The position numbers were made by a program, and so were the translations under genes. A stretch of DNA of 53,277 nt from Methanocaldococcus sp. (GTDB lineage: Archaea > AGJL01 > Methanococci > Methanococcales > Methanocaldococcaceae), in assembly GCA_027068365.1 (NCBI GenBank), contig JAMOTQ010000010.1, forward strand, positions 1-53,277, given 5' to 3'. The notes under the pieces were generated by a model. The model made no database searches. It was not told the DNA's origin and worked only from the letters and a program-made list of their open reading frames with translations. This document shows, piece by piece, positions 16,811 to 20,718 of this stretch; the stretch's first letter is position 1, and each line of letters opens with the position of its first letter.

Positions 16811-16989
16811 AAAAATTTTTGATAAGGGATATTAATTTATTTAAAAAATGTTTAACTCTAAGAAAAAATGTTTAAATGCCAAAATCATTTAAATAATATA
16901 AATAATACTTATAAGAAGTTTATTATATATTTGTTAAAATTATCAAAGTCATTATCATATCATAAGGTTAAGAATTAAAGGTGACGGTT

Positions 16990-19900
16990 ATGAATCTTGA
17001 AGAGAGAAAAAAGTTAGAAATGAAATCTATTGACGAATTGGATTTAGTTGGAAAAAAGGTCTGTGTTGATACATGTGTGGTTATAGATGGTAGAATAACT
17101 GAACTTATTGAAAAAGGAAAGTTGAAAGATGCAACCATAGTAATCCCTGAGGCAGTTGTTTCTGAATTAGAATTTCAAGCAAATAGGGGGAGGGAGATAG
17201 GATATAAAGGAATAGAGGAGCTTAGAAAGTTAGTGGAAAAAGCTAATGAATACAATATTAAAGTTGAATACTATGGGGAGAGACCTACAAGAGAGGAGAT
17301 ATTTTTAGCAAAAAGTGGAGAGATAGATGCGATGATTAGAAAAGTGGCAAAAGAAACAAACTCTATATTATTAACAAGTGACTGGATTCAGTATAACTTA
17401 GCTAAGGCACAGGGGATTGAAGCGTATTACTTAGAAAGTGTTGAGGAAGAGGTAGAGCTTGTATTAAATAAATACTTCGATGAAGAAACGATGTCTGTGC
17501 ATTTAAAAGAAGGTTGCTTACCTTATGCTAAAAAAGGAAAGCCAGGAGCTGTTAAACTTGTTCCAATAGGAGACAAAGAACTAACAAAGGAAGAAATGGA
17601 GGATATTATTGACAATATTATAAAGTATGCTGAACAAAACAATGGATTCTTTGAAATTCAGAGAAAGGGGGCTACTGTTATTCAATTAGGAAATATTAGG
17701 ATTTCAATTGCAAGACCTCCGTTCTCTGAGGCATTGGAAGTTACAGCAGTTAGACCAGTAGTTAAAGCTTCATTAGATGACTACGAGTTATCAGATAAGC
17801 TATTAGAAAGATTAAAAGAGAGAGCAGAGGGAATCTTTGTCTCTGGACCGCCTGGAAGTGGGAAGTGTTTGCCAAGAGGAACAAGGGTTTTATTGCCAGA
17901 TGGAACATTTAAAAATATAGAGGAGTTAAAATTAGGGGACTATGTCTTGTCAGTTGGGTTAAATGAGATTATGGAAAATCCAATTATTAAGACTTACAAG
18001 AGAAAGGAGAGTAGATTAATAAAAATTAAAACAAGATTGGGAAGAGAGTTAATTTTAACTGAAAGACATCCAATATTATGCATTAAAGATGGGTTTGTTG
18101 GGTGGAGAGAAGTTAAAAACTTAGATGTTGGAGATGTTATTGGTGTAGTTAAAAGTTTGGATATTGAAGGAAAAGATATAGAACTCAACATTGTGGATTT
18201 AATTAAAAATATTGGAGAAGGAAACAAATTTTATGCAATTTTGGAGAATGGAGATGAGAAACCAGTAAGTGAAGTTAATGATACTGACAAAATTAAATAT
18301 ATTTACTACAAAGGGAATAATAATATAAAATCAAGAAAAATAAAGCCAAATATAAAATTAGATGAAAACTTTGCTGAATTATTAGGATTGTTGTGGGCAG
18401 AAGGTAGTGGAGGAAATCTTGAATTTAATAATTTAGATGAAAGATTAATTCAGCATTATAAAAAATTGATGATGGAAGTGTTTGACATTAAAGAGAATGA
18501 GTTTTACTTTGCTGACAGAGGAAGATTAAGAATAAGAAATCCAAAAACTATATATCTGGTTTTAAAAGCTCTTGGATATCCAGAGAGTAAAAAGTCAAAA
18601 ACATTAAAAGTTCCAGGAATCATATTTAAGAGTAATAAAAATATAATATCAGCATTTATAAGGGGAGTGTTTGAAGGAGATGGCTACATTGGAGAGAGGG
18701 GTATTGAAATAGCAACGGCAAGCAAGGAGTTTGCTAATGGCATATATTACCTATTGATTAGGTTGGGCATTACTCCATTCCTAAAAGAGAAAAAAATTGG
18801 AGATAATGTATATTACAGGATATTAATACAAAATTCAAAGGACATTAATAAATTCTACAACATAATAAAACCAAGATTTAAAGTTGCTGGATTTGAAAGG
18901 TTTTTAAACAAAGAGAGCAATCCAAATGTAGGAACAGTCCCAGTTGGAAATGTTTTAAAGGAATTGTATGAGTTGTTGGGTGGATATATAGATAATGCTG
19001 AGAAAAATGAATACTCAATAGAAAGATTAGAAATGCACTTAAATATATTAATTGATATGTATAAAAACTATGTGGCATACAAAGAGAAAATTGAAGCTCT
19101 CAAACATATAAATTCAACATTAAAAGATTGGAAAGATGTTATAAAAAGATTAGATGAATTATTAAAGACAGTTAATAAACAGAAATTCTGCAAAGAGCAT
19201 AATATAGACCACAATGCATTTAGCAAATATCTCTCCAATAAAAGAAAACCAACATTAAAAACCATAATAAAATACTTAGAGGAGTTTAATAAAGAGTTTG
19301 ATTTAGAAGATACTTTAATGAATTGGAAAACTACTTATGAGCAATTAAATGAAATATTGGATAAAATAAAGGATGCTCCATTTATAAAGTTCAAATCAGA
19401 AGTATTAAGCCCAGATATGAAGAGATTGTTATTCAAAGAAAAGAAACTTCCAAACTTAATATCATTATCTGAATATATTGACGAGATTTGTAAAGAATAT
19501 TATGAAAGATTAAATAAAATTGAGACGTGCCTCTCAAATTTAATGGCAATACTAAATAAAAATATCTTCTGGGACAAAATTGTTGAAAAAGAGGAAATTG
19601 ACTATAATGACTTTGTATATGATATAGAAGTGCCATATCATAACTTTATAATAAATGAAACCCCAATAATTGTGCATAATTCAACGTTCGTAGCGGCATT
19701 GGCTGAATTTTACAAAAATCAAGGAAAAGTAGTCAAGACGATGGAAAGTCCAAGGGACTTGCAAGTTAGTAAGGAGATAACTCAATATGCACCATTGGAG
19801 GGAGATATGGAAAAGACGTGCGATATCCTATTATTGGTTAGACCTGATTACACAATCTACGATGAGGTTAGAAAGACGAGGGACTTTGAGATATTTGCAG

Positions 19901-20718
19901 ACATGAGGATGGCAGGAGTTGGAATGGTTGGGGTTGTGCATGCATCAAAACCAATAGACGCTATACAGAGATTGATTGGAAGGGTTGAGCTTGGAGTTAT
20001 CCCACAAGTTGTTGATACGGTAATCTTTATAAAAGATGGGAAGATACAGAAGGTTTATGAAATAGATTTTACAGTTAAAGTGCCTTATGGAATGGTTGAG
20101 GAAGATTTAGCAAGACCTGTTATTGAAGTTAAGGACTTTGAGACAGGAAGAGTTGAGTATGAAATCTACACCTATGGGGAGCAAGTTGTTGTTATGCCAA
20201 TTAAAGATGAGGAGGGGAAAAAAGCTCCAATATATGGATACGCTGAGGAGAAGTTAGAGGAGATATTAAAAAAGCTTCTTCCAAGAAAAGCCAAGCCAAT
20301 GGTAAAGGTTACAGGAGACAACTCAATTGATTTAATTGTTCCAGAGAAGTATGTTGGGGCTATTATAGGTAAGGGAGGTAGAGAGATATCAAAATTAGAG
20401 GACATGCTTGGATTAAAGATTTCAGTTAAAGAGAAGGAAAAAGAGGAAGAAAAAGACATGGAAAAAATATATAGAAGGTATGAGTATGTGAATGAGCTTG
20501 AAGCAACAAAGATTTATGAGACAGATAAATATGTGGTTGTAGATGTTGGGGAGGACTTTGCAGGGGAAAACATAAAGATTTACATAGATGGGAAGTTATT
20601 AACAACTGTAACTGTGAGGAATGATGGGACTGTGAGGATAAACAAAAAAACAAAGGTTGGAAAAGAAATTCTAAAAGCAATAGATGAGGGAAGAGATGTG
20701 TATGTTGATTTGCAATAA
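16990..20718 (+). CDS. PIN domain-ATPase-KH protein, interrupted by an intein
   Basis: The host protein after splicing is 637 residues: a PIN nuclease-like domain (residues about 20-150, acidic residues in CVDTCVVIDG and in GEIDAMIR), a PilT/GspE-type secretion-ATPase-like domain with P-loop GPPGSGKST, a Walker B-like LLLVRPDYTIYDEVR, and a C-terminal KH domain with IVPEKYVGAIIGKGGREI. This archaeal family is conserved but its substrate is not known; PIN plus KH suggests RNA. A 605-residue intein sits between the P-loop Lys and Ser, so no ATPase activity is possible before splicing. Start at ATG 16990 after GGTGA; the GTG nine bases earlier is part of that site. Divergent from mer. Confidence 0.88.
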   Translation: MNLEERKKLEMKSIDELDLVGKKVCVDTCVVIDGRITELIEKGKLKDATIVIPEAVVSELEFQANRGREIGYKGIEELRKLVEKANEYNIKVEYYGERPTREEIFLAKSGEIDAMIRKVAKETNSILLTSDWIQYNLAKAQGIEAYYLESVEEEVELVLNKYFDEETMSVHLKEGCLPYAKKGKPGAVKLVPIGDKELTKEEMEDIIDNIIKYAEQNNGFFEIQRKGATVIQLGNIRISIARPPFSEALEVTAVRPVVKASLDDYELSDKLLERLKERAEGIFVSGPPGSGKCLPRGTRVLLPDGTFKNIEELKLGDYVLSVGLNEIMENPIIKTYKRKESRLIKIKTRLGRELILTERHPILCIKDGFVGWREVKNLDVGDVIGVVKSLDIEGKDIELNIVDLIKNIGEGNKFYAILENGDEKPVSEVNDTDKIKYIYYKGNNNIKSRKIKPNIKLDENFAELLGLLWAEGSGGNLEFNNLDERLIQHYKKLMMEVFDIKENEFYFADRGRLRIRNPKTIYLVLKALGYPESKKSKTLKVPGIIFKSNKNIISAFIRGVFEGDGYIGERGIEIATASKEFANGIYYLLIRLGITPFLKEKKIGDNVYYRILIQNSKDINKFYNIIKPRFKVAGFERFLNKESNPNVGTVPVGNVLKELYELLGGYIDNAEKNEYSIERLEMHLNILIDMYKNYVAYKEKIEALKHINSTLKDWKDVIKRLDELLKTVNKQKFCKEHNIDHNAFSKYLSNKRKPTLKTIIKYLEEFNKEFDLEDTLMNWKTTYEQLNEILDKIKDAPFIKFKSEVLSPDMKRLLFKEKKLPNLISLSEYIDEICKEYYERLNKIETCLSNLMAILNKNIFWDKIVEKEEIDYNDFVYDIEVPYHNFIINETPIIVHNSTFVAALAEFYKNQGKVVKTMESPRDLQVSKEITQYAPLEGDMEKTCDILLLVRPDYTIYDEVRKTRDFEIFADMRMAGVGMVGVVHASKPIDAIQRLIGRVELGVIPQVVDTVIFIKDGKIQKVYEIDFTVKVPYGMVEEDLARPVIEVKDFETGRVEYEIYTYGEQVVVMPIKDEEGKKAPIYGYAEEKLEEILKKLLPRKAKPMVKVTGDNSIDLIVPEKYVGAIIGKGGREISKLEDMLGLKISVKEKEKEEEKDMEKIYRRYEYVNELEATKIYETDKYVVVDVGEDFAGENIKIYIDGKLLTTVTVRNDGTVRINKKTKVGKEILKAIDEGRDVYVDLQ
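17866..19680 (+). other. Intein with LAGLIDADG homing endonuclease (605 aa)
   Basis: Splicing motifs are complete. Block A begins at Cys1 (CLPRGTRVLLPDGTFKNIEE), block B has the TxxH of TERHPILC, block F/G is VYDIEVPYHNF ... PIIVHN, and the next host residue is Ser. The endonuclease has two dodecapeptide motifs, LLGLLWAEG (about residue 170) and IRGVFEGDGYI (about residue 266), each with an acidic residue. Residues about 360-590 are extra for an intein of this kind and include a helix-turn-helix-like stretch (FCKEHNIDHNAFSKYL). The frame is fully open, so both splicing and endonuclease could be active. Confidence 0.92.

Follow-up and report, generated by a model that had tools for sequence, protein, structure and literature searches.

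How the Walker A motif of an archaeal ATPase comes to be broken by several hundred additional residues, and whether the interruption serves the host or mainly perpetuates itself, are the questions raised by a locus in a 53 277-nucleotide stretch of Methanocaldococcus sp. DNA (contig JAMOTQ010000010.1 of assembly GCA_027068365.1), hereafter referred to as the window. Positions 16981–20718 of the forward strand, on which all of the features of this gene lie, form one uninterrupted frame that starts with GTG and encodes 1245 amino acids. The first 295 and last 345 residues of its product match the ATPase equivalog NF010335/PRK13764, and the best overall explanation for the insert between them, which we hold with high confidence, is an old and repeatedly mobile class-1 LAGLIDADG homing intein at the Lys/Ser junction of the Walker A motif of PINA.

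The host protein matches the PINA-type archaeal PIN–ATPase–KH proteins, in agreement with the family to which a first-pass annotation of this DNA had assigned it. It scores 866 bits against the PRK13764 model (cut-off 340) and contains the PIN domain, the Walker A ATPase and the KH domain expected of that family. The N-extein (16981–17865) comprises the PIN domain (Pfam PIN, 2.2e-13) and the N-terminal half of the ATPase, and ends in VSGPPGSGK, the Walker A motif GPPGSGK itself (17845–17865) being broken after the lysine. The C-extein (19681–20718) starts with Ser+1-Thr and provides the remainder of the ATPase and the KH domain (20329–20445; Pfam KH_1, 1.2e-07). The solved PINA structures 5f4h and 5yww are matched at about 1e-109, and MJ1533 (3i8o) is a further match for the PIN domain. 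Against the narrower NCBIfam model HJMigATPsPINA, which has a cut-off of 800 bits, the full-length sequence with its intein included reached 442 bits. The Sulfolobus enzyme is reported to be a Holliday-junction branch-migration ATPase, the deletion of which causes cold sensitivity in S. acidocaldarius, where growth at low temperature requires PINA (PMC8775617); by homology, the host protein would also be expected to migrate Holliday junctions. The predicted spliced product comprises 640 residues counted from the GTG codon; the previously proposed length of 637 residues holds if the ATG at 16990 is taken as the start.

The limits of the insert follow directly from the host profile. The PRK13764 match runs from 17053 to 17865 (profile positions 4–276) and resumes at 19681 (profile positions 277–612), so that the insert occupies exactly 17866–19680. 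The 605-residue in-frame intein in GPPGSGK|ST described by the first-pass annotation, starting with Cys, ending in His-Asn and followed by Ser, is therefore correctly delimited to the base, and its splicing and LAGLIDADG motifs proved to be complete (Cys1, Thr65-x-x-His68, His604-Asn605, Ser+1, Glu179 and Asp272). Pfam Intein_splicing (PF14890) covers residues 9–605 of the insert with 80.2 bits (1.8e-22; cut-off 35.8), LAGLIDADG_3 (PF14528) matches with 59.8 bits (3e-16) and the NCBIfam model intein_Nterm also recognizes it. The profile scores, together with an 82% identical copy at the same codon junction in a congener (G011, which we take to be M. vulcanius M7) and ten uninterrupted congeneric orthologues, exclude chance, and the comparisons confirm 17866–19680, as far as sequence can, as a class-1 intein with a LAGLIDADG homing endonuclease at the Walker A Lys/Ser junction.

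The insert shows the organization of a splicing domain interrupted by an endonuclease. The N-terminal part of the HINT domain (17866–18165), recognized by Intein_splicing, intein_Nterm and an alignment of 11 alleles of the PINA intein family, carries Cys1 and block B (TERH), and its C-terminal part (19561–19680) contains block F (VYDIEVPYHNF) and block G (PIIVHN), with Intein_splicing extending to residue 605 and a weak intein_Cterm match; the insert ends in VHN and the next residue is Ser. Cys1, His68, His604 and Asn605 are invariant across the 11 alleles. A profile search of the PDB returned the V-ATPase P-loop intein 7qss as the best match (3e-39), followed by PI-PkoII (2cw7) and then by splicing domains including those of KlbA MJ0781 and RadA. 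The endonuclease domain, with approximate limits at 18358–18900, contains both LAGLIDADG helices: block C (ELLGLLWAEGS; 18376–18408) with the catalytic acid Glu179 of the WAEG motif, and block E (FIRGVFEGDGYIG; 18655–18693) with Asp272 of EGDG. About 200 residues separate the endonuclease from the C-terminal splicing part, and archaeal inteins are reported to carry an accessory domain in the corresponding position (PMC8966425). The region 18946–19560 is thus a probable accessory domain with a putative role in DNA recognition, and residues 453–479 within it show a helix–turn–helix match (HTH_3) at E=0.01, below the cut-off. A single-sequence structure prediction for the insert alone reached a pLDDT of 39 and was not used for any conclusion. 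The intein has a G+C content of 0.28 compared with 0.37 in its exteins, a lag that is similar in most copies and thus provides no evidence on origin.

Orthologue comparison within the genus showed an uninterrupted PINA gene with GPPGSGKS in ten congeners, two further congeneric drafts having no scorable PINA gene; the empty target site is of the type GGACCTCCTGGAAGTGGAAAG|TCAACG. With 20 other Methanococci, the number of empty alleles in this class reaches 30. The insert is hence not common to all relatives, and the empty sites that the first-pass annotation had suggested looking for in other Methanocaldococcus genomes do exist. The gene is also uninterrupted in G007, presumably M. jannaschii, as that annotation had stated for this species. 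In the extein tree the sister of the occupied G011 is an empty genome, G004, from which it differs around the site at 14 positions in 90 bp where about 3.5 are expected (P about 2e-5). At these positions the genus-typical base is mostly found in G011 and the unusual base in G004 (11 to 1 when judged against G007), which would be explained by conversion of G011 from a congeneric donor or, alternatively, by recoding of the site in G004, for example as resistance. The codon for the P-loop serine of GSGK is TCG in G004 and AGT in all other compared congeners, possibly a recoding of the homing site.

The PINA intein allele is not confined to the lineage of the window, a point that the first-pass annotation had missed. 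In the Thermococcaceae, 12 genomes contain a full 594-residue intein at the same junction with 38–42% identity to that of the window, a contig ends inside a 13th copy and 77 PINA alleles are empty. The PINA genes of two small-genome archaea (G522 and G523) likewise contain the intein at GPPGSGK|ST. In a maximum-likelihood tree all sampled PINA inteins form one clade (support 100/99), separate from the RFC, V-ATPase, CDC48 and TFB inteins, with the inteins of the small-genome archaea branching outside the Methanocaldococcus and Thermococcaceae group. The genome sample contained one genome per species and covered other archaeal phyla unevenly; a search of the phylum of G371, run without a positive control, returned no copy. 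No close relative was found among phages, plasmids and IMG/VR, where the best matches were partial and of about 31% identity or less, which speaks against a viral or plasmid origin; the viral scan used two short peptide patterns only and carries little weight.

These comparisons also bear on where the insert came from. The window belongs to a 168-contig draft genome of about 89% completeness, a setting in which an assembly artefact might be suspected, or a native host domain mistaken for an insert. Yet the same insert is present in the independent, near-complete three-contig genome G011, relatives have exact empty sites and intein profiles span the whole insert; both ideas are refuted by the orthologue comparison, and we assign them a negligible probability. 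The alternative that the RFC P-loop intein of the same genus recently jumped onto the similar P-loop of PINA has some points in its favour: after the other PINA copies, RFC inteins at GPPGVGK|TT rank with the closest matches (about 30% identity over residues 167–605), and most P-loop codons are common to both target sites. The V-ATPase inteins, however, match the endonuclease region about equally well, and the PINA inteins, those of the Thermococcaceae and small-genome archaea included, form their own clade (100/99) rather than belonging to the RFC P-loop or VMA-b allele families. This monophyly, apart from RFC, points to one old allele and not to recent spill-over; the tree rules out a recent jump, which we consider very unlikely as an overall account, and any such jump was ancient.

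Several known inteins interrupt a P-loop in a comparable manner. The VMA-b intein of the archaeal V-type ATP synthase subunit A (for example TliVMA, 7qss) likewise follows the Walker A lysine and likewise combines a class-1 HINT domain, a LAGLIDADG endonuclease and an accessory domain, but differs in its V-ATPase host, +1 Thr, separate clade and smaller size (429–535 residues, compared with 594–610 for PINA inteins). The RFC small-subunit intein occupies the same P-loop position, is about 30% identical and resembles the PINA intein in layout, including a large extension towards the C terminus, but resides in a clamp loader, is followed by Thr and falls into a separate clade. In Pyrococcus horikoshii and Thermococcus sibiricus, RadA inteins also lie in the P-loop of a recombination ATPase of hyperthermophilic archaea; they differ from the PINA intein in being mini-inteins that lack an endonuclease and for which conditional splicing has been demonstrated (PMC5790916). 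The haloarchaeal MCM-a and MCM-d inteins reside in a different host gene, MCM-a again following the Walker A lysine; co-conversion of a flanking residue to Ser upon intein invasion is reported for MCM inteins, the homing and endonuclease activity of which have been tested in vivo (PMC10643990). In the open-access literature, covered mostly through titles and abstracts, no paper describing the PINA Walker A intein was found.

Patchy occupancy, incongruence with the host and co-conversion of flanks argue that the PINA intein has been mobile, as expected of a homing LAGLIDADG element. Within one Thermococcaceae genus, the exteins of G473 and G469 are 96–98% identical but their inteins only 59%, which makes separate acquisition most likely. 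Along most of the gene G469 and G481 are closest to their own genus; from −60 to +60 around the intein they are 92% identical to another genus and 77–80% identical to their own, and this stretch is evidently a co-conversion tract. The +1 residue follows a related pattern: in the Thermococcaceae it is Ser in all 12 occupied alleles, compared with Thr in 75 and Ser in two of the 77 empty ones (Fisher 4e-13, relatedness ignored); the independent, well supported contrasts agree in four of four cases (sign test p=0.125). Outside the Thermococcaceae, the sampled Methanococci and sister families have Ser at +1. On the simplest reading the intein brought its own Ser codon into the Thermococcaceae or Ser+1 was selected for splicing, two readings that are compatible; for MCM inteins, a similar co-conversion to Ser of a residue in the flank is reported (PMC10643990). 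The two empty Thermococcaceae alleles with Ser+1 (L154 of G488 and L160 of G415) use AGC/AGT, compared with TCN in occupied alleles; they may have changed from Thr to Ser independently or may preserve old traces of an intein since lost.

The endonuclease appears to have been maintained in the lineage of the window. Between the window genome and G011, a single pair with fairly high dS, the intein has a dN/dS of 0.12 and its endonuclease region (residues 161–360) one of 0.08, compared with 0.04–0.05 for the exteins; the first two values argue for purifying selection on the endonuclease, and both genomes retain Glu179 and Asp272. Recent transfer of the intein between these two genomes was rejected, since its synonymous divergence (pS 0.48) is similar to that of the exteins (0.60 and 0.49). 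In one Thermococcus allele (L086 of G454) both catalytic acids have been replaced, by Lys in block C (WAKG) and by Asn in block E (EGNG), with the splicing motifs intact; this double loss would be an expected stage of decay in the homing cycle.

The motifs suggest how the element would operate as a homing intein. Splicing would start with an N–S acyl shift at Cys1, proceed by transesterification to Ser+1 and by cyclization of Asn605 aided by His604, and end with an O–N acyl shift, this post-translational excision regenerating GPPGSGKST in a PINA of about 640 residues. Given the position of the insert in the P-loop, the precursor would be unable to bind ATP normally, so that activity would need splicing. 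At the DNA level, the endonuclease would cleave empty P-loop alleles and double-strand-break repair would copy the intein together with a short flanking extein stretch that includes the +1 Ser codon, the old allele persisting through cycles in which it homes horizontally, its endonuclease decays and it is lost.

Dependence on splicing invites the further idea of a domesticated intein that acts as a conditional switch, PINA splicing awaiting a temperature, redox or DNA-substrate signal and thereby gating Holliday-junction processing. In its favour, an insertion in the P-loop must presumably stop ATP binding until splicing, the P-loop RadA inteins of P. horikoshii and T. sibiricus are reported to splice only at raised temperature in their native exteins (PMC5790916) and S. 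acidocaldarius requires PINA when growing in the cold (PMC8775617). Against this, most relatives live without the intein, its distribution is of the mobile-element type, purifying selection still acts on the endonuclease and Cys1 is the only invariant cysteine across the allele family. Redox control by a disulfide was rejected, as the family offers no invariant partner cysteine, and no cysteine was found among the adjoining extein residues. A temperature or redox switch is possible by analogy with RadA; the suggestion of the first-pass annotation that the intein marks such a control point is unsupported, and domestication as a switch seems improbable to us. The strongest signals, namely mobility, purifying selection on the endonuclease, co-conversion and patchiness, are what an ordinary homing intein would leave. 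More speculative still is the notion that the intein gates a branch-migration motor and so times the processing of recombination intermediates, including those arising from its own homing; if true, it would be a self-interested switch within the very pathway that copies it.

The window intein is one of many in its genome (G000), in which about nine further intein-bearing frames were noted (contigs C32, C45, C64, C73, C74, C118 and C144), with a polymerase, TFB, a secretion-type ATPase, apparently ribonucleotide reductase and others among the hosts. The RFC small subunit (L002; G000:C32:16224-16877) has a 228-residue mini-intein devoid of an endonuclease at GPPGVGK|TT, where it represents a decayed relative in the paralogous position; the RFC P-loop site of G007 holds 548 residues. 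A helicase that we read from its sequence as Hel308/Hjm-like (L001; G000:C118:3425-4507) also bears an intein, so that splicing would be required for both of the candidate enzymes of Holliday-junction branch migration.

The PINA Walker A site is an addition to the P-loop intein sites, occupied by an element of a kind that is already known. Related hyperthermophiles include both occupied and empty alleles, the +1 residue changes from Thr to Ser with occupancy in the Thermococcaceae and the host is itself a recombination enzyme; the site is therefore well suited, as a natural experiment, to studying the passage of inteins between genera and any regulation of hosts by P-loop inteins.
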